From assembly GCA_018714805.1 (NCBI GenBank), contig DVMW01000044.1, positions 1 through 39,892 on the forward strand: a stretch of DNA of 39,892 nt. Reading direction: 5' to 3'. How positions within the stretch are numbered: position 1 is the stretch's first letter; every line of letters starts with the position of its first letter. This document shows positions 2,008 through 10,341 of this stretch, one piece after another. The notes under the pieces were generated by a model, which was not told the DNA's origin, did not search any database, and saw only the letters and a list, made by a program, of their open reading frames with translations. This DNA is from Candidatus Fimenecus excrementigallinarum. Its GTDB lineage: Bacteria > Bacillota > Clostridia > Oscillospirales > Acutalibacteraceae. Position numbers and translations under genes: made by a program.

Positions 2008-3036
2008 TTACCACGGGTTGTTCGCGTCGGGGTCGGTGGGGTCCCAGCCGCGGCGGCTGTCGTTCACGTCGATTTTCGCGGGCGTGGGCGGGGTGAGGGG
2101 TTCGGCTTCGGCGCTGTCGTAAATCACGACGGTCGTGCCCTTCGGGCAGTTGTCGTAAATCCACTTTGCGTCCTCGACGGTTAAGCGGATGCAGCCGAGC
2201 GAAGCGGCCTGGCCGAGCTTGTTGTATTCCTCATATTCAAGGTCGCTCTTGTCCTGCGTGAAATACGGGACGGAGTGGAAGAGAATGTGCCCGGTGATGC
2301 GCGTCGCATACTGGCCGTAGACGTTGCCCGAAAGCAGCCGCCAGGTGTATTTATCGGTCGTGTTGTAGGTGCCGGTGGGCGTTTTGCCGTCCGTCCCGAC
2401 CGAGCAGAGCATCGCCTTGTAGGGGACGGTGTAGTCGCCGTTCGCATCCTTGGCGTATACGGTCACAATGTTCTGCTGGCGGTTGACGTGCAGCAGGTAC
2501 GGCGCGTCGTCGTTTTGCTTGCCGCCGGGGGCTTCCTCCACATATTTGCCGGAAACATAGCCCACGCCGCCGTTATAGGCGATGCGGTACCAGCCGTTCG
2601 AGCACCGCCCGGTGACGGAAAGCGCCTGGTCCTGCCCGACCATGCCGAGCTTCGCGCTGTCCGCCGAGGGCGCGGCGCGCACGTTTAGGGTGACGACGTT
2701 GGAATACATTGTCGTCTGCATATCCGTCACCGTCACGTCGCCGATGGCCTGGGTCGGCGCTTCGGTTGTCGGCGCTTCGGTTGTCGGCGCTTCGGTTGCC
2801 GGCGCGGCGGTCTGCGATTCCGTAACGGGCGCGGCGGTCTGGAACTCGTCCCCGCCGGCGGGGGAGGCGGCGCGGCGGCTGTGGACGACCAGCCCGATGG
2901 TGACAAACACGGCGGCAACCAGCAGCGCGGCGACCGCGATTAAAATGTTCCTTTTTTTCGGGTCGAGCGGCCTTTTCCCGCGGCGCGGCCGTTTGCCGGG
3001 TGCGGGACGTTTTTTATAGCTCTGAGAAAATTCCAT
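2008..3036 (-). CDS. Membrane-anchored L,D-transpeptidase (YkuD domain) with SH3b domain
   Basis: A 342-aa protein. The start at 3036 is supported by an AAAAGGA ribosome site just upstream and a consensus promoter further up. Order of parts: a strongly basic cytoplasmic N-terminus (about 1-30), one membrane segment (about 31-52), a Thr/Glu/Ala/Pro linker with TEAPT repeats, a bacterial SH3 domain (about 100-165) and a C-terminal YkuD catalytic domain. His254 (HSVPYF) and Cys282 (SLGCIRL) are the expected catalytic pair. The residue two before the Cys is Leu where the classic motif has His, a variant that I recall in gut Clostridia. The family makes 3-3 peptidoglycan crosslinks or attaches proteins to peptidoglycan outside the membrane; the SH3b domain would bind the wall. 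Confidence 0.9.
   Translation of the reverse strand: MEFSQSYKKRPAPGKRPRRGKRPLDPKKRNILIAVAALLVAAVFVTIGLVVHSRRAASPAGGDEFQTAAPVTESQTAAPATEAPTTEAPTTEAPTQAIGDVTVTDMQTTMYSNVVTLNVRAAPSADSAKLGMVGQDQALSVTGRCSNGWYRIAYNGGVGYVSGKYVEEAPGGKQNDDAPYLLHVNRQQNIVTVYAKDANGDYTVPYKAMLCSVGTDGKTPTGTYNTTDKYTWRLLSGNVYGQYATRITGHILFHSVPYFTQDKSDLEYEEYNKLGQAASLGCIRLTVEDAKWIYDNCPKGTTVVIYDSAEAEPLTPPTPAKIDVNDSRRGWDPTDPDANNPW
2754..2798 (-). repeat. Three tandem 15-bp units coding the TEAPT linker
   Basis: Three identical in-frame 15-bp copies (2754-2768, 2769-2783, 2784-2798) encode the Thr/Glu/Ala/Pro linker of the L,D-transpeptidase. Copy number can probably vary by slippage without changing the frame. Confidence 0.9.
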
Positions 3037-3068
3037 GCGTTTCGTCCTTTTCTTTATAATACACCCAC

Positions 3069-3097
3069 AGTATATGCACAAAACCGCGTCTTGTCAA
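3069..3097 (-). promoter_or_regulatory. Consensus promoter for the L,D-transpeptidase
   Basis: On the minus strand, a perfect TTGACA (3097-3092) and TATACT (3074-3069) with a 17-bp spacer. The start codon is at 3036. Confidence 0.85.
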
Positions 3098-3127
3098 GGC
3101 GCGGCAGATTTTTCCGCGCGGCGGCGC

Positions 3128-3183
3128 GCTTGCGTTTCCGCCGGGCGTATGCTACAATGCAGGCGGACGCCGGAAACGCAAGC
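3128..3183. repeat. 13-bp inverted repeat bracketing the two-component promoter
   Basis: Positions 3128-3140 (GCTTGCGTTTCCG) and 3171-3183 (its exact reverse complement) are separated by 30 bp. The left arm contains the -35 box and the right arm sits about where transcription starts. It could be an operator pair or a leader stem. Confidence 0.7.
3130..3158 (+). promoter_or_regulatory. Promoter for the two-component operon
   Basis: TTGCGT at 3130-3135 and TACAAT at 3153-3158 with a 17-bp spacer, upstream of the response regulator start at 3203. It lies inside a larger inverted repeat (3128-3183). Confidence 0.7.
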
Positions 3184-3202
3184 GAATACGAAAGGAACCG
3201 AT

Positions 3203-3877
3203 ATGATTTATTACGCCGAAGACGACAAAAGCATCCGCGAGCTTGTGGTGTATACGCTGCAAAGCACCGGCTATGAAGCGCGCGGCTTTGAAAACGGAGA
3301 GGCGCTGTTCGAAGCCATCCGGCAGGCGCGCCCGGAGCTTGTGCTGCTGGACATCATGCTGCCCGGCGAGGACGGGCTCAGCATTTTAAAGCGGCTGCGC
3401 GAAGCGCAGGAGACGCAGGACATCCCCGTCATCATGCTGACGGCCAAGGGCTCGGAATACGACAAGGTCAAGGGGCTCGACTGCGGCGCGGACGATTATA
3501 TCACCAAGCCCTTCGGCATGATGGAGGCCGTTTCCCGCGTGCGCGCGGTGCTGCGGCGCACCAAACGCCGCGAGGACGGCGAGGTCTACCGCTGCGGCCC
3601 TATCGAGCTCAACGTCAAGACCCACCGCGTGACGGTGGACGGCAAAAACGTGGAGCTGACGTATAAGGAATTTGCGCTGCTCAAGTACCTTTTGCAAAAC
3701 GAGGGCATTGCGCTCACGCGCGATATGCTGCTGGAAAAGATATGGGGCTACGACTTCGACGGCGAGACGCGCACCGCCGACGTGCACATCCGCACCCTGC
3801 GCGCAAAGCTGGGCGACGCGGGCAAATACGTCGAGACCGTCCGCGGCGTCGGCTACCGGATAGGCGGTGAGGGCTGA
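3203..3877 (+). CDS. OmpR/PhoB-family response regulator
   Basis: A 224-aa DNA-binding response regulator. The ATG at 3203 has AAAGGA at 3191-3196. The receiver domain (1-~115) has the acidic pair Glu6/Asp7-Asp8, the phospho-acceptor Asp50 (LLDIMLPG), and the conserved Thr (MLTAKG) and Lys (ITKPFG). The winged-helix effector domain (~125-224) ends with the typical RGVGYRI motif. Its stop codon shares one base with the start of the kinase gene (TGATG), so the two are translationally coupled. The partner has a PhoR-like layout, so phosphate starvation is a reasonable guess for the signal, but no pst or phosphatase genes are in the window. Confidence 0.92.
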   Translation: MIYYAEDDKSIRELVVYTLQSTGYEARGFENGEALFEAIRQARPELVLLDIMLPGEDGLSILKRLREAQETQDIPVIMLTAKGSEYDKVKGLDCGADDYITKPFGMMEAVSRVRAVLRRTKRREDGEVYRCGPIELNVKTHRVTVDGKNVELTYKEFALLKYLLQNEGIALTRDMLLEKIWGYDFDGETRTADVHIRTLRAKLGDAGKYVETVRGVGYRIGGEG

Positions 3878-5133
3878 TGCGCCGGCATACCGCGCACACC
3901 GCCTTCGCCGTCCTGCTTGCGCTGCTGCCGGGGCTTTTGGGCGCTGTGCTTTTGTGCCTGCGCATTTCCGACGTGTGGGCGTACACCTGCGCGGGGGTGC
4001 TGCTGGTGTTTTCCGCGGTCGACCTTTTGTTTGTGCGGCAGTCGGCGCGCCGGGAACGGGCGTTCCAAAAACGGCTCGACGCGCAGGACGCGGCCGCCGC
4101 CCGCCGGGAAAAGGCGCTGTCCGAGAGCGTCGAGGAGTTTAACGCGATTGTCGCCGGCATGCCCGACGGGCTGGTCGTGTATGACGCCGCGGGGACGATT
4201 GTGTCCGCCAATCCCGCCGCGCGGGAGATTCTGGCGGGCGACCCGACGGGGCCGTACCGGTCCCTCAGCCGCGAAAAGCATTACCTTTCCGTGGTGGAAA
4301 GCGCGCTCGCGGGCAAAACCAAGACCCGCAAAATGAAGCGGGGCGGCAAGGTGTATTCCCTGTCCGCCGCGCCCGCCACGGGCAAGCGCGGCGGCACGGC
4401 GGCGGTGCTGTTCATTGCGGATGTCACCGAAGCGGAGCTGTCGCGCAAAATGCGCCGCGAATTTTCCGCCAACGTCTCGCACGAGTTGAAAACGCCCCTG
4501 ACCTCTATCCTCGGCTATGCCGAGATTATCGGCAACGGGCTTGTGAAGCCGGAGGATATCCCGAAATTTGCGGGGCGCATCCGCAAGGAGGCCTCCCGGC
4601 TTTTGACGCTGATTGAGGACATCATCAAGCTCTCGCGCCTGGATGAAGACGAGCTGCGCGCGGAATTTGCGCCGGTCGAGCTGCACGCGCTGTGCAGCTC
4701 GGTGCTGGAGTCGCTGTCCGCCAAGGCGCAGCGCGCGCAGGTGACGCTCTCGCTGTCGGGCGGGGAAACGGTCGTCAGCGGCTTTGAGCCCGCGCTTTAC
4801 GAAATGGTGCACAACCTCTGCGACAACGCCATTGCCTACAACCGCCCGGGCGGCGGCGTGCGCGTCAAGCTTGAAACGGCGGAGGGCCGGCCGCAGCTAT
4901 CGGTTTCCGACGACGGGATTGGCATCGCCCCCGAGCACCTCGGGCGCATTTTCGAGCGGTTCTACCGCGTGGACAAAAGCCATTCCAAGGAGACGGGCGG
5001 CACGGGGCTCGGCCTTTCGATTGTCAAGCACGACGCCGAGCTGCACGACGCGCAGCTTTCGGTGGACAGCGCCCCGGGCGCGGGCACGACCATCCGCGTG
5101 CTGTTCCGCGCGCAGGTAAGGGAAAAAGAATAA
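3877..5133 (+). CDS. PhoR-like sensor histidine kinase
   Basis: A 418-aa membrane kinase whose ATG overlaps the regulator's stop by one base. Two closely spaced membrane segments (about 8-28 and 33-50) leave almost no extracellular part. A cytoplasmic PAS-like sensor follows (about 85-190), then the dimerisation domain with phospho-acceptor His202 (VSHELKTPL), and the ATPase domain with N box (NLCDNAIAYN), G1 (DDGIGI) and G2 (GTGLGLSIVKH). This order, short-loop membrane hairpin then PAS, is that of PhoR/WalK-type kinases. With so little outside the membrane, the signal is probably read inside the cell or from another membrane protein. A terminator follows 13 bp after the stop. Confidence 0.92.
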   Translation: MRRHTAHTAFAVLLALLPGLLGAVLLCLRISDVWAYTCAGVLLVFSAVDLLFVRQSARRERAFQKRLDAQDAAAARREKALSESVEEFNAIVAGMPDGLVVYDAAGTIVSANPAAREILAGDPTGPYRSLSREKHYLSVVESALAGKTKTRKMKRGGKVYSLSAAPATGKRGGTAAVLFIADVTEAELSRKMRREFSANVSHELKTPLTSILGYAEIIGNGLVKPEDIPKFAGRIRKEASRLLTLIEDIIKLSRLDEDELRAEFAPVELHALCSSVLESLSAKAQRAQVTLSLSGGETVVSGFEPALYEMVHNLCDNAIAYNRPGGGVRVKLETAEGRPQLSVSDDGIGIAPEHLGRIFERFYRVDKSHSKETGGTGLGLSIVKHDAELHDAQLSVDSAPGAGTTIRVLFRAQVREKE

Positions 5134-5912: not shown

Positions 5913-5959
5913 CTTATAATAACTATACCTATATCGCCAGGTTGCCAAAGGAGCGGGCT

Positions 5960-6715
5960 ATGCAGCGGGACGCAAAAAACGAAGATTTCATCGTCGGGCG
6001 CAACGCCGTAGCGGAGGCGCTGCGCGCCGGGCGCGAGATTGATACGCTTTACGTGCTCGCGGGCGAACGCGTCCCGGCGGTACGCCGGCTCGTTTCGGCG
6101 GCGCGCGAATCCGGCGCGGTCGTCAAAGAGGTCGACCGCAAAAAGCTCGACGCGCTTTCCGGCGGCGCGGTGCACCAGGGCGTCGCGGCGCTTGCCGCCG
6201 CGCACAGCTATGCGTCGCTCGACGACATTTTTGCGCTGGCAAGGCAGCGCGGCGAGCCGCCGTTCGTGGTCGTCTGCGACGAACTCGAGGACCCGCACAA
6301 TCTCGGCGCGGTCTTGCGTACCGCGGAGGCCGCCGGCGCGCACGGGGTCGTCGTCCCCAAGCGCCGCAGCGCGCCGCTTTCCGCCACGGTCGCCAAGACC
6401 TCGGCGGGCGCGCTCGAATATATTCCCGTCGCCCGCGTGCCGAACCTGCCCGCGGCGCTCGATACGCTCAAGGCGAACGGCTGCTGGGTCTACGGCGCGG
6501 ATATGGACGGCACGGATTACAAGCAAACGGATTTTTCCGGCGGCGTCGCGCTGGTCGTCGGCGCGGAGGGCAAGGGCCTCGGGCGGCTTGTCCGCGAAAA
6601 ATGCGACGCGATTGTTTCGCTGCCCATGAAGGGGAAAATCAATTCGCTCAACGCCTCGGTGGCGGCGGGCATTTTGCTGTATGAAATTTCCGCACACAGA
6701 ACTTCGGAAGGCTGA
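5960..6715 (+). CDS. rlmB: 23S rRNA (guanosine-2'-O-)-methyltransferase RlmB / TrmH-family SpoU methylase
   Basis: A 251-aa protein. ATG 5960 was chosen over a TTG at 5942 because AAAGGAG (5947-5953) lies between them at good spacing. An N-terminal L30e-like RNA-binding domain (residues ~1-80) is followed by the SPOUT catalytic domain with the three SpoU motifs: ELEDPHNLGAVLRTAEAAG, the GAEGKGL loop, and PMKGKINSLNASVAAGILLYE at the C-terminus, which form the trefoil knot that binds S-adenosylmethionine. RlmB methylates the ribose of G2251 in the 23S rRNA peptidyltransferase centre. A relative acting on another rRNA or tRNA site is possible. The next gene starts 12 bp downstream. Confidence 0.88.
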   Translation: MQRDAKNEDFIVGRNAVAEALRAGREIDTLYVLAGERVPAVRRLVSAARESGAVVKEVDRKKLDALSGGAVHQGVAALAAAHSYASLDDIFALARQRGEPPFVVVCDELEDPHNLGAVLRTAEAAGAHGVVVPKRRSAPLSATVAKTSAGALEYIPVARVPNLPAALDTLKANGCWVYGADMDGTDYKQTDFSGGVALVVGAEGKGLGRLVREKCDAIVSLPMKGKINSLNASVAAGILLYEISAHRTSEG

Positions 6716-6727
6716 GGTGCAGAACCT

Positions 6728-9607
6728 ATGTCGGAACAGGATATTTTGTCGGGGCTCAAGGTCGATGAAATTTTAGACGACGTCAAGCGCCGAAAAGCGA
6801 ATACCGAGCGGCGGGTCTGGTCGATGGATGAGATTGACGCGCTGCTGTCCTCCGACGCGCCCGAAAGCCATGCCGAGCCTGTGCAGGCGCAGCCGGAGCC
6901 GAAGCCTGCGCCGGAACCAAAGCCGGAGCCGAAGCCGGAACCCGCGCCGCAGCCCGACCTGCCGGCGCAAAAGCCGGCGGCGCCGCACACGCCGTCCTTA
7001 AAGGAGCTCGCGCGGCGCAAGGCGCATATGGAGGCGGCCGAGGAGCCCGCGTCCGACGCGGATATAGAGCCGCTTCTGGCGGGCGCAACGCCGCAGGCCG
7101 AGCCTGCGCCGGCAAAGGAACAGGCCGGCGCGCCCGCAGCGCTGCCGGGGCAGATTTCCATAGAAAAAACCCGTGTGTTCAACGAGGTCGAGGCGCACGC
7201 GGTGCGGCGCAGTGACGTCGAGCACCAGATTGGCCGGCGCGTGACGCACACCACGGGCAAACGCCCCGACCCGATTGGCGCGCACGGGCAGGGGCTGGAG
7301 GCCGACCCGGTGCGCGACCGGTTCCTCAACCGGCCGCAGCAGAATCTTGAAAAAACGCAGGAGCACCGCGAGCTGCTCGCGAAACGCCCGCCGCAGACGA
7401 TAGAAAAGCCGGGCGTGATTGTCCGCAAGGCGGAAGCGCAGAACGCAGACGGCGAGCTGCAGGCGATTCCGACGCTGGTGACGCCGGAGGACGTCCTGCG
7501 CGCGCAGCAGGCGGAATCCGCCGAAGCCGGCGCGCCGCGGGAGCCGGAGAAGGAGCCGCTCGAGGACCAGATTCGCCTGGCCGGGTACGAGACGGAGGAA
7601 GAGCCGGTCGAGCAGATTGACGAATCCGAGGCCGAAGCAAAGCTGCGCGAGCGGCAGTATGCGCGGGCGAAGGATTTTCGCCTGTTCCGCGGGATGTTTG
7701 ACGAAAACGGCGCGGCAGAGCCGGACGCGGCAAGCCCGGCGCCGCAGGCGGACGGCCGCACGCGCGTCGTGCCCGAGCTGCCCGATGAAAACGAGCCGGA
7801 AGCGGAAGCGTCCGAACCGGAGGAAGCGCCCGAACCCCGCCGCCGCGCCCGCAAAAGGACGCGCGAGGCGCCGCCGGTGCGCGTGCTGCGCGAATTTTAC
7901 GGGCCCAAGGACGAGGACGCCGTTTTGGAGCTGTATCTGGCGGAAAAACGCGGGTACACGCTGCGGCTGTGGCTGAGCGTCGTATTTTTGGCCGCGTCGG
8001 CGGTTTCGGCGCTGCTGGTGCAGCTGACGGGGGGCTTTTCGCTGTTCGGCGGCAGCGCCGGCGTATACGCCGCGCTGCACGCGGTGCTGCTCATGACGGC
8101 GCTGCTGCTTTGCATCCCGCAGTGGAAGACGGCGTTTTCGGCGCTGCGCTGCCGCAGCGTCTCTGCCGAAGGGGGTCTGCTCGCCGCGCTTTTGGCGGCG
8201 CTCGTGCAGACGGCGGCCGCCTTTGCGTATCCCGAATCGCTCACAAGCGTCCCGCTGTACAGCGCGCTGGCCTTTTGGAGCCTGACCGTTTATTTTGCCG
8301 GCCGCCGCAAGGGCGTGCAGACCGACATCGACGATTTCCGCCTGCTGGCGGCCCGGTACGGGCGGTTCTCGAGCGTCGCGCGCATCGAGGACCCCGACAC
8401 GGCGTTTGAAATCGGCCGCGGGCTGCTGCTGGGCGACCCGGACGTCCGCTACTCGAAAAAGCTGGCGTTCCCGTCCGATTTTGTGCGCGTTTCCAAAAAC
8501 AACGACCGTGACCTCGGCGTCTATTCGGCCGCGCTGCCCGCGGTGTTCGCTGCCGCCGTTGTTATCGGCGCGGTGACCGGCTTTGTCCGCGGGACGGTGT
8601 TCGCCGGCATTTCCGCCGCGGCCGCCACGGTGCTTGCGGGTCTTCCCGCGGCCGCCGTCGCGGGAGCCGCCTCCGCGTTTTCTGCTGTGAACCGCCGCCT
8701 GCGTTCGTCGCACGCGATGATTGCGAGCTTCGACGCCGCGTTCGACGCGGTTACGGCCAACGCCGTAGTGCTCGACGCCGCCGAGCTGTTTGACGGCTGC
8801 AACTGCCGCGTGTGCGGCATGAAAACCTACCATAAGATGCGCGTGGACGAAGCGCTTTTATACACGGCCGCCATGACCATCGGCTCGGGCGGGACGCTGT
8901 CCGACGTATTCGACGCGGTCGTGCTGGGCAAGCGCGAGATTTTGCCGCCGGTCGAATCGCTCGCCTATGAGGAGCGGCTCGGCTGCTCGGGCTGGATTTA
9001 CAACCAGCGCGTGCTCGTCGGCAGCCGCGAGCTGCTTTTGAAGCACAACGTCGACGCGCCCTCGCGCGAGGAGGAGCAGCGCTTTAAAAAGGACGGCTGC
9101 GAGGTTCTCTATCTTGCGGTCGAGGGCAAAACGGCGGCGCTGTTCGTCGTGGAATACGCCTCCGACCGGCAGATTTCCGCTTATTTGCAGCGGCTTGAAA
9201 AATACGGCGTGACCATTTTGCTGCGCACGTCGGACCCGAATATTACGGAAACGCTTGTGGAGCAGTATTTCCGCCTGCCGCATAACCTGGTGAAGGTCAT
9301 CGGCCCCGTGGCGGGCGAGCTGTTCCGCGAGCTCAAGGACGCCCCGCCGCGCGAGGAGCCCTGCGCCGTGCTGCACGACGGCACGACCGCGTCGGCGCTG
9401 CGCGCCTTCCTCGCCTCGTTTGCGCTCGAGGAAAAGCACCGGCTTTTGCAGGTGCTGCTGTACATCGGCGTCGGCCTCGGGGTGCTGCTCATGGCGGCGC
9501 TGGGCTTCTTTACGGGGCTAAGGCAGGCGGGCGTTTTGGAGCTTTTGCTGTTTGAGGGCTTCTGGACGGCGGTCGTAACGCTGGTGCCCCGGTTCAAAAA
9601 AGTGTAA
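6728..9607 (+). CDS. Catalytically degenerate P1B-type ATPase-like membrane protein with long disordered N-terminus
   Basis: A 959-aa protein with GAGGTG 5' of ATG 6728. Residues 1-~405 are Pro/Glu/Ala-rich and probably disordered (PEPKP runs near 56-80). The rest follows the P1B-ATPase plan: four membrane segments (~412-527), a short cytoplasmic part where the actuator domain should be, two segments (~598-655), a large cytoplasmic domain (~660-900) and two last segments (~905-948). Pro640 sits where the CPC-type Pro should be, and Asp683 (AVVLDAAEL) lies 43 residues later, in the place of the phosphorylated Asp. The surrounding DKTGT is gone; TGDN reads T834-S-D-P; GDGxND reads H883-D-G-T-T; the HP motif and the actuator TGE are absent. 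The sub-region with YNQRVLVGSRELLLKHNVD still resembles a real nucleotide-binding domain. I infer a non-pumping pseudoenzyme, perhaps a sensor or scaffold. mgtC follows 11 bp later. Confidence 0.8.
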   Translation: MSEQDILSGLKVDEILDDVKRRKANTERRVWSMDEIDALLSSDAPESHAEPVQAQPEPKPAPEPKPEPKPEPAPQPDLPAQKPAAPHTPSLKELARRKAHMEAAEEPASDADIEPLLAGATPQAEPAPAKEQAGAPAALPGQISIEKTRVFNEVEAHAVRRSDVEHQIGRRVTHTTGKRPDPIGAHGQGLEADPVRDRFLNRPQQNLEKTQEHRELLAKRPPQTIEKPGVIVRKAEAQNADGELQAIPTLVTPEDVLRAQQAESAEAGAPREPEKEPLEDQIRLAGYETEEEPVEQIDESEAEAKLRERQYARAKDFRLFRGMFDENGAAEPDAASPAPQADGRTRVVPELPDENEPEAEASEPEEAPEPRRRARKRTREAPPVRVLREFYGPKDEDAVLELYLAEKRGYTLRLWLSVVFLAASAVSALLVQLTGGFSLFGGSAGVYAALHAVLLMTALLLCIPQWKTAFSALRCRSVSAEGGLLAALLAALVQTAAAFAYPESLTSVPLYSALAFWSLTVYFAGRRKGVQTDIDDFRLLAARYGRFSSVARIEDPDTAFEIGRGLLLGDPDVRYSKKLAFPSDFVRVSKNNDRDLGVYSAALPAVFAAAVVIGAVTGFVRGTVFAGISAAAATVLAGLPAAAVAGAASAFSAVNRRLRSSHAMIASFDAAFDAVTANAVVLDAAELFDGCNCRVCGMKTYHKMRVDEALLYTAAMTIGSGGTLSDVFDAVVLGKREILPPVESLAYEERLGCSGWIYNQRVLVGSRELLLKHNVDAPSREEEQRFKKDGCEVLYLAVEGKTAALFVVEYASDRQISAYLQRLEKYGVTILLRTSDPNITETLVEQYFRLPHNLVKVIGPVAGELFRELKDAPPREEPCAVLHDGTTASALRAFLASFALEEKHRLLQVLLYIGVGLGVLLMAALGFFTGLRQAGVLELLLFEGFWTAVVTLVPRFKKV

Positions 9608-9618
9608 GGAGGAACGCG

Positions 9619-10341
9619 ATGGAATGGCTCAAGGAGGCCGCGCTGTGGCTTTGGGGGCAGGAGGAGTTTCGCTTCGCCGTCGACGCGGCGTGGAAGCTGG
9701 CTTTAAGCGTCCTCTTAAGCGGCATCATCGGCTTTGAACGCGAACACTCGCACCGGCCGGCGGGCTTTCGCACGCATATCCTCGTGGCGGTCGGCTCGAC
9801 GCTCATTATGCTGACCTCCGTCTACGTCGCGAATACCTATGAAGGCCAGGCCAACGTGGACATCACCCGCATGGCGGCGCAGGTGGTCAGCGGCATCGGC
9901 TTTTTGGGCGCGGGCACCATTCTGCGCGAGGGCTTTTCGGTCAAGGGCCTGACGACGGCGGCGAGCCTCTGGGCGGTCTCCTGCATCGGCATCGCGGTCG
10001 GCGCGGGCTTTGTGACCGGCGCCATTGTCGCGACGCTCGTCATTTACCTGACGCTCAATTCGCTCAAAAAGGTCGTTGTCCGCGGCCGGGCGGGCAAGGC
10101 GCTCTACATCGAGGTGCGCGACCTCGCCGAGCAGGTCCCGAAAATCTCCGGGCTTATCAAGCGCACGGGCACGGTCGTGCATTCCATGGAAATTTTGTAC
10201 GACAACGACTCGAAATTCCGCAAAAAGAAGGACACCTCCACCATCAAGGCGCTCATTTTTCCCAAAACGGACAACGCGCTCAAAATCATCATCTCCAACC
10301 TGCAGGCGGATGAAAACGTGGTGGACGTATACGTGGACTAA
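9619..10341 (+). CDS. MgtC/SapB-family membrane protein
   Basis: A 240-aa protein with AGGAGG 5' of the ATG. The N-terminal half has about four to five membrane segments and the family signature GIIGFEREHSHRPAGFRTHI, then the Gly-rich GIGFLGAGTILREG and GLTTAASLWAVSCIGIAVG blocks. The C-terminal ~90 residues (from about 150) form a soluble ACT-like domain. In enterobacteria MgtC is encoded with the Mg2+ P-type ATPase MgtB and controls ATP/phosphate balance; other SapB members have unclear roles. Here the upstream partner is a pseudo-P-type ATPase, which parallels that pairing. The two are probably co-transcribed from the rlmB promoter. The natural terminator seems to have been split by an inserted element (10373-10645). 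Confidence 0.88.
   Translation: MEWLKEAALWLWGQEEFRFAVDAAWKLALSVLLSGIIGFEREHSHRPAGFRTHILVAVGSTLIMLTSVYVANTYEGQANVDITRMAAQVVSGIGFLGAGTILREGFSVKGLTTAASLWAVSCIGIAVGAGFVTGAIVATLVIYLTLNSLKKVVVRGRAGKALYIEVRDLAEQVPKISGLIKRTGTVVHSMEILYDNDSKFRKKKDTSTIKALIFPKTDNALKIIISNLQADENVVDVYVD

Follow-up and report, generated by a model that had tools for sequence, protein, structure and literature searches.

Why would a bacterium keep a membrane pump that has lost the residues needed for pumping? The question is raised by a gene, here called X, on contig DVMW01000044.1 (GenBank assembly GCA_018714805.1) of Candidatus Fimenecus excrementigallinarum, a member of the Acutalibacteraceae in the order Oscillospirales (class Clostridia, phylum Bacillota). 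The whole stretch analysed, 39,892 nucleotides, is referred to as the window. X encodes a protein of 959 residues, whose numbering is used throughout, and a preliminary description had seen in it a look-alike of the P1B-type ATPases that cannot pump and is retained for another purpose. X is almost certainly a non-catalytic P1B descendant. As for its role, we infer, at somewhat better than even probability, that it is a scaffold or receptor in the membrane, without catalysis. The phosphorylation cycle is the defining trait of P-type ATPases; a clade that dropped the cycle yet kept the scaffold under selection would show a second use of the fold.

Descent from the copper pumps is established at several levels. 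Hydropathy and an AlphaFold2 model agree on four transmembrane (TM) segments, a short loop, two TM segments, a large domain and two final TM segments, the pattern already recognized in the preliminary description. This is the P1B layout, in which the loop stands for the actuator (A) domain and the large domain for the phosphorylation and nucleotide-binding (P and N) domains; the A part is just a loop of 62–86 residues. The NCBIfam profile of CopA matches X with an expect value (E) of 3.7e-15, and a phmmer search with X finds LpCopA at E=6e-9. The X family profile reaches LpCopA at E=2.4e-41, and profile–profile alignment of the family with CopA by hhalign gives E=1.3e-38 over 550 columns, so that homology spans the whole pump core. 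When the predicted core is compared by Foldseek, LpCopA is the best match and the top matches are P1B ATPases. Within the P-type superfamily it is the CopA models that X matches best. Conservation, spacing and position counts refer to an alignment of 53 X cores, and 43 of these match the NCBIfam CopA model (E up to 0.01), compared with 23 for PRK11033 and 12 for P_type_ZntA; pumps of the ZntA type thus match fewer rows, and their best E-values are weaker. The window core scores 56.8 bits on the CopA model, against a curated cut-off of 1316, and X has no Pfam match above the cut-off. A tree was built from 27 X cores (of the 53) together with 26 P1B sequences, namely two controls and 24 CopAs of genomes not in the order. 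In it a single branch with support of 100/100 separates X from the P1B pumps; branches inside X are long and flagged as uncertain by the tree program.

The likeness to CopA, the Cu+-exporting P1B ATPase (NF007952/TIGR01511; structures 3rfu and 4bbj), extends from the eight-helix plan and the order of domains to exact distances. The gap of 43 residues between Pro640, at the site of the CPC motif, and Asp683, at that of the phosphorylated aspartate, had been noted as a P1B trait; it is 43 in 24/24 CopAs and 42–43 in 53/53 family rows. From the Asp683 site to the aspartate of the TGD motif the family has 144–156 residues (median 153) and CopA 151–154. The N domain has kept its CopA length and two of its glycines, G752 and G765, both invariant in the 53 rows.

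Set against this framework is the loss of the catalytic motifs. Profile–profile alignment confirms that in the window protein CPC reads LPA, DKTGT reads DAAEL and TGDN reads TSDP. The TGE and HP motifs, described as missing, are indeed replaced: SEHP by SGGT, and TGES by LGDP within a poorly aligned A loop, which falls short of its CopA counterpart by about 64 residues. One reading of the preliminary description has to be revised. It had placed HDGTT at the GDGxND motif; this is a misalignment, as that motif belongs to a segment of 32 residues that X has lost, and the counterpart of HDGTT is MKSDL of CopA, further on. The deletion is visible in the distance from the aspartate of TGD (D836) to TM7 (residue 906), which is 70 residues in the window protein, 66–72 in the 53 rows and 102 in 24/24 CopAs. 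The P-domain lysine, too, is changed or deleted. The survey of motifs covered 92 distinct rows, six duplicates having been dropped; 90 rows belong to the family, and two (L097 and L098) are true P1B pumps that served as controls. The strings DKTGT, GDGxND and CPC occur in 0/90 family rows and in both controls. Shorter strings occur incidentally. DKTG occurs in one row, L016, away from the motif site, which reads DAHDL there; full rows contain TGD in 13 cases and TGE in 34. Within the cores TGD is present in six rows, never at the motif position, and TGE in six. Eight further rows of the order were read, three of which (L102, L105 and L107) contain a TGD or TGE string and one (L101) EHP, none at the TGD or SEHP motif.

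D836 is kept in 51/53 rows, and the M4 proline is retained in 45/53, the CPC cysteines being lost. New residues have become fixed at old functional sites, among them N838, present in 46/53. Y810 occupies, in 51/53 rows, a position where CopA has Asp. In M6, MALSS of CopA reads EGFWT in the window protein, and W946, present in 47/53 rows, replaces a serine of the CopA motif that belongs to the metal site. In P1B pumps the Glu and His of SEHP hold ATP; at this site position 721 is Gly in 28/53 rows and position 722 Gly in 28/53 or Ser in 14/53. In the GxG of the N domain the first glycine is kept in 53/53 and the second is Ser in 36/53. Because the nucleophile motif has been rewritten, the GDGxND segment, which binds Mg, deleted together with most of the A domain that bore TGE, and the membrane metal ligands lost, X should be unable to form or break the aspartyl phosphate. 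From established chemistry it would be unable to run the P-type cycle, and the sequences give good support for a loss of pumping. By descent X is a P1B ATPase, yet it lacks the defining catalytic features and is best not filed as a pump.

X is widespread in the order. A search with the single protein found matches in 91 of 98 relatives' genomes, and 88 of these 91 loci were retrieved (G011, G013 and G028 were left out). The order has 26 family codes, and 24 of them include a matching genome; f5 and f25 are represented by one incomplete genome each. With a profile of the 53 rows, X is found in 192 of the 197 genomes of the order with a completeness of at least 90%, with matches better than 1e-52 (match ranges were seen for part of the 192). 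The other five genomes (G085, G118, G141, G153 and G175) give only weak matches, also on repetition, and in four of them the top match carries DKTGT and GDGxND and is a true pump. In a sample of 196 genomes of the class, X is present in all nine members of the order, at E-values no higher than 3.3e-117, and is found in none of the 187 others, whose best match is a partial stretch at 8.7e-42. Among 149 genomes of the phylum, X is found solely in the two members of the order. The top profile matches outside the order hold all catalytic motifs in 24/24 sequences read. X would have been fixed early in the order, of which it is a near-universal, apparently single-copy signature.

Selection on the gene is strong. 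The ratio of nonsynonymous to synonymous substitution rates (dN/dS), estimated by NG86 in seven pairs, is 0.10–0.25 for the whole gene, 0.09–0.34 for the head (one pair being saturated) and 0.016–0.13 for the P/N region, the most constrained part in all seven pairs; several dS values exceed 1, so these ratios are rough. Family-wide motif loss and dN/dS well below 1 agree with the view of a non-pumping protein that is nonetheless retained. Per alignment column the N domain is foremost, with 1.73 bits and 40 of 126 columns above 2 bits, the highest of the regions; TM segments reach 1.06–1.30 bits, TM1–4 being lowest (1.06).

The gene also occurs in an isolate: Subdoligranulum variabile TSDC17.2-1.1 (Oscillospiraceae; OY725837.1) carries rlmB, the gene for the 23S rRNA G2251 2'-O-methyltransferase, together with X (profile E=9e-147). 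The 116-kb record is labelled ‘plasmid 3’ and may be a chromid or a mislabelled contig. A mobile gene was considered and rejected: among plasmids, only this record and a Legionella copper pump match. Seven faecal virome records named ‘Bacteriophage sp.’ match X as well. The one that was read (MT835508.1) is marked unverified, carries rlmB and X, and resembles bacterial DNA.

The core is preceded by a head that differs greatly between members. The preliminary description had given it as a disordered stretch of 400 residues. For the window protein this holds by composition: W, C, F, I, Y, V and L make up 17% of the head vs 38% of the core, and the net charge is -27. The length is not a family trait, ranging from 11 to 544 residues over 64 rows (L053, which is cut, and L058, which is broken, are not counted). 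Within the genus two long blocks are retained, PGQISIEKTRVFNEVE and RxRFLNxPxQxLEKTQEHxxL...KTIExPGVxVxK, with variations (the latter reads RDRFLNRPQQNLEKTQEHRELLAKRPPQTIEKPGVIV in the window). Beyond the genus the traceable element is a helix-like motif at the N terminus, which many rows have as FSLDDILxE and the window protein as DILSGLKVDEILDDVKRR. Motifs of the FSLDDILxE type occur in 15 of 48 non-genus heads vs a shuffle mean of 0.13, and a looser pattern matches 30 of the 38 heads from the genus (shuffle mean 0.35) and 16 of the 48 from elsewhere (0.18). A Pfam scan of 62 heads found no domain except one low-complexity match to Extensin_1. The exact string WSxDEIDxLL is present in 9 of 39 genomes of the genus, once each and always in the X gene; the idea of a docking motif common to other proteins of the cell was accordingly rejected. 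A broader pattern has no match in the window's own genome (G000), X included, since the window motif has Lys where the pattern wants Ser.

The computations for X establish its ancestry, the lost motifs, the fixed spacing, strong purifying selection, the spread across the order and the linkage to rlmB; against this background the following arrangement is proposed. (i) X would be a pseudoenzyme of ancient origin, confined to this order, that descends from a CopA-type P1B ATPase and has been retained to interact with other proteins while anchored in the membrane. (ii) The eight-helix bundle would provide the membrane anchor. (iii) The CopA-sized N domain would offer a docking surface for a partner protein. 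This domain has lost the ATP-holding residues and kept its size and two glycines under the strongest constraint in the protein, which fits reuse for protein binding. (iv) The variable, disordered head would be a flexible tether, and in many members it has a short helix motif, or two of them, close to the tip that may recruit a second partner. (v) X would thus act as a scaffold or receptor at the inner face of the membrane. A bolder version, which we put forward only tentatively and consider rather unlikely, makes the former copper pump an order-wide membrane hub, possibly tying the translation functions of the rlmB operon to the membrane, with the nucleotide domain now a protein-docking module.

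Several observations weigh against this proposal. An x-G-D/E remnant is common at the TGE position, where among the 53 rows Gly stands at the second place in 26 and Asp or Glu at the third in 27, and one row, L052, still reads TGE there (about residue 568). The old nucleophile Asp683 is still Asp in 27/53 rows, and residue 684 is Asp in 20. A role with changed chemistry is conceivable. L073 and L086 have almost no head, which means that the core role does not depend on a tether. The looser motif has no match in 32 of the 48 heads from outside the genus, and the pattern was set after viewing these same heads, which makes its figures descriptive. Finally, the P/N region of the predicted models has a low predicted local distance difference test (pLDDT) score, and a surface patch is not mappable on it.

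Two side observations concern these exceptional rows. L052 is without DKTGT, GDGxND and CPC despite its TGE, and is perhaps a relic of the ancestral pump. L073 and L086 encode versions of 545 and 544 residues that have an 11-residue head and begin nearly at TM1; they are the minimal members.

The principal rival to a scaffold is a sensor, in which the N domain binds a nucleotide or another small ligand, or the bundle binds metal or lipid, and the head relays the signal. The CopA length of the N domain, its first GxG glycine, kept in every row, and its rank as the best conserved part all speak for such a function, as does a response-regulator/histidine-kinase pair upstream of rlmB in the window. 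The ATP-holding Glu and His of SEHP are, however, mostly replaced by Gly or other residues and the second glycine of GxG is largely Ser. The bundle has lost its metal ligands, and at no position of the TM segments is an acidic residue or a Cys conserved at 50% (position 943 is Gln in 27/53). A sensor is unlikely, if the most credible of the alternatives.

Less credible again is a passive or secondary transporter, a channel or a lipid scramblase that uses the P1B bundle without ATP. All eight helices and, in most rows, the M4 proline are kept, and a lipid-shaped density is reported beside the putative canonical site in human TMEM94. The TM segments are nevertheless among the least conserved parts and show no conserved polar path: besides Trp946, no predicted TM position holds a polar residue in at least 70% of rows. 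Trp itself takes the place of the M6 serine, and the constraint on the N domain would be left unexplained.

It is improbable that X serves as subunit or inhibitor to a true P1B pump of its own cell. Descent from CopA would suit such a partner, and six of seven genomes of the order that were tested hold a P1B pump above the TIGR01525 cut-off, the window's genome (G000) two. One genome, G184 (97% complete, and judged at the profile level only), has X at E=3e-105 and no TIGR01525 match above the cut-off; moreover, the fixed neighbour in the loci read is rlmB and not a pump. Bacterial P1B pumps outside the order are not known to need such a subunit.

The neighbourhood bears on a further rival, a role in translation or ribosome maturation, in which X is co-expressed with RlmB and keeps ribosomes, RNA or a maturation factor attached to the membrane. 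rlmB lies directly upstream of X in 85 of 90 loci. In 80 of these the two genes are on the same strand by the script criterion, with gaps below 200 bases in 79 and of at most 50 bases in 73; in the five others (L039, L064, L070, L088 and L096) the coordinates are read as those of an over-extended X frame that overlaps rlmB or has fused with it. Three loci (L037, L049 and L053) place X too near a contig end to judge, and two (L069 and L091) have no rlmB upstream. EF-G-like genes lie downstream of X in eight loci, and one further gene matches the EF-G GTP-binding domain. Operon partners need not share a function, though, and the rlmB link may signify shared expression only. The downstream gene varies and the 62 heads contain no RNA-binding Pfam domain, which leaves this rival a slim chance, a shade below that of a pump subunit. 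Lastly, a decaying gene or an assembly artefact, for which two of the 90 rows could speak (L058, from genome G081, is split by one TGA and L092, from G070, into two open reading frames (ORFs), by loss or assembly error), is refuted by the low dN/dS, the presence in nearly every genome of the order and the near-identical spacing of 53 rows, and its probability is negligible. Two other rows, L037 and L053, are incomplete where their contigs end.

A P-type fold without the pumping cycle has a precedent outside bacteria. The closest one found is human TMEM94/ERMA, a protein of P-type fold argued not to pump: it is described as P-type-like and lacking TGES, with no nucleotide detected under various nucleotide conditions (PMC12134183). 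It differs from X in being eukaryotic, with ten TM segments and an A-like domain, and among known P-type ATPases it resembles SPCA most. Its function is contested, as another paper presents it as a Mg2+ ATPase (PMC13322241). In apicomplexan guanylyl cyclases a P4-ATPase module is tied to signalling; there the module is fused to the cyclase and a conserved catalytic residue matters (PMC7858053). The main text of a P-type ATPase review does not contain the terms ‘inactive’ or ‘degenerate’ (PMC10654040), and no bacterial protein of this dead P-type kind was found in the literature searched, which mostly excludes subscription papers. In X the new elements are the order-wide signature, the nearly constant position beside rlmB, the uniform deletions and an N domain that is the most constrained part. 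Differences from CopA include, besides the altered or deleted CPC, TGE, DKTGT, SEHP and GDGxND motifs and the shortened A and P domains, the long variable head. X is near-universal as sampled and lies outside every Pfam family; it may well perform a core function specific to this lineage, for which it is a good candidate. The nearest models that would name it are metal pumps, and it is thus a warning for the automatic annotation of metal resistance.

Table 1. Parts of X and neighbouring genes in the window (positions in the window; residues of X)
Feature	Position	Strand	Remarks
Response-regulator/histidine-kinase pair	3035-5133		upstream of rlmB
rlmB, 23S rRNA G2251 2'-O-methyltransferase	5942..6715	+	12 bases upstream of X; start codon as listed mechanically
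X, pseudo-P1B-ATPase, 959 residues	6728..9607	+	ATG at 6728, stop at 9607; CopA profile homology
Head, residues 1-401	6728..7930	+	variable, acidic, Pro/Glu/Ala-rich; disorder taken from composition
N-terminal helix-like motif DILSGLKVDEILDDVKRR, residues 5-22	6740..6793	+	other families often FSLDDILxE at like position
Second helix-like motif WSMDEIDALL, residues 31-40	6818..6847	+	
Genus-conserved head block PGQISIEKTRVFNEVE, residues 140-155	7145..7192	+	
Genus-conserved head block RDRFLNRPQQNLEKTQEHRELLAKRPPQTIEKPGVIV, residues 196-232	7313..7423	+	
TM helices 1-4 (P1B MA, MB, M1, M2), residues 411-527	7958..8308	+	
Shrunken A-domain loop, residues 528-600	8309..8527	+	LGD at TGE position
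TM helices 5-6 (M3, M4)	8528..8692	+	Pro640 (8645-8647) of CPC retained, both Cys gone
First P-domain part	8693..8827	+	DAAEL at 683-687 in place of DKTGT
N domain	8828..9205	+	best conserved region; G752, G765 invariant in 53 rows; SEHP lost
Second P-domain part	9206..9436	+	T-x-D-x-N at 834-838 for TGDN; GDGxND segment deleted
TM helices 7-8 (M5, M6)	9437..9598	+	M6 motif replaced; Trp946 in 47/53
MgtC-family membrane protein gene	9619..10341	+	downstream of X

Beyond rlmB, a conserved neighbourhood was sought by a Pfam scan of 87 upstream and 86 downstream ORFs and rejected. Among the downstream ORFs EF-G is the top family, with its eight cases; no upstream family occurs more than three times, and three ORFs are also the most that any other family reaches beyond the genus. 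In 33 of the 90 loci the gene after X is of the MgtC family, and 32 of these loci are in the genus set of the window. Enterobacterial mgtC is linked to a gene for a P-type Mg2+ ATPase.

The head motif was also found in 10 of 555 neighbouring ORFs vs 0.99 by shuffles. One of these is the upstream piece of the broken X in L058, one is an unrelated ORF (L077) and eight are an internal helix of RlmB. This helix (about residues 83–94, in L016, L017, L020, L045, L052, L066, L076 and L086) resembles YSSVDDILxxA and is close to the FSLDDILxE of the adjacent X head; the likeness is probably that of a common helix cap. At the start of the window, positions 27-842 encode a protein with a sub-threshold NifU-like match, next to a GGGtGRT protein at 857-1864.

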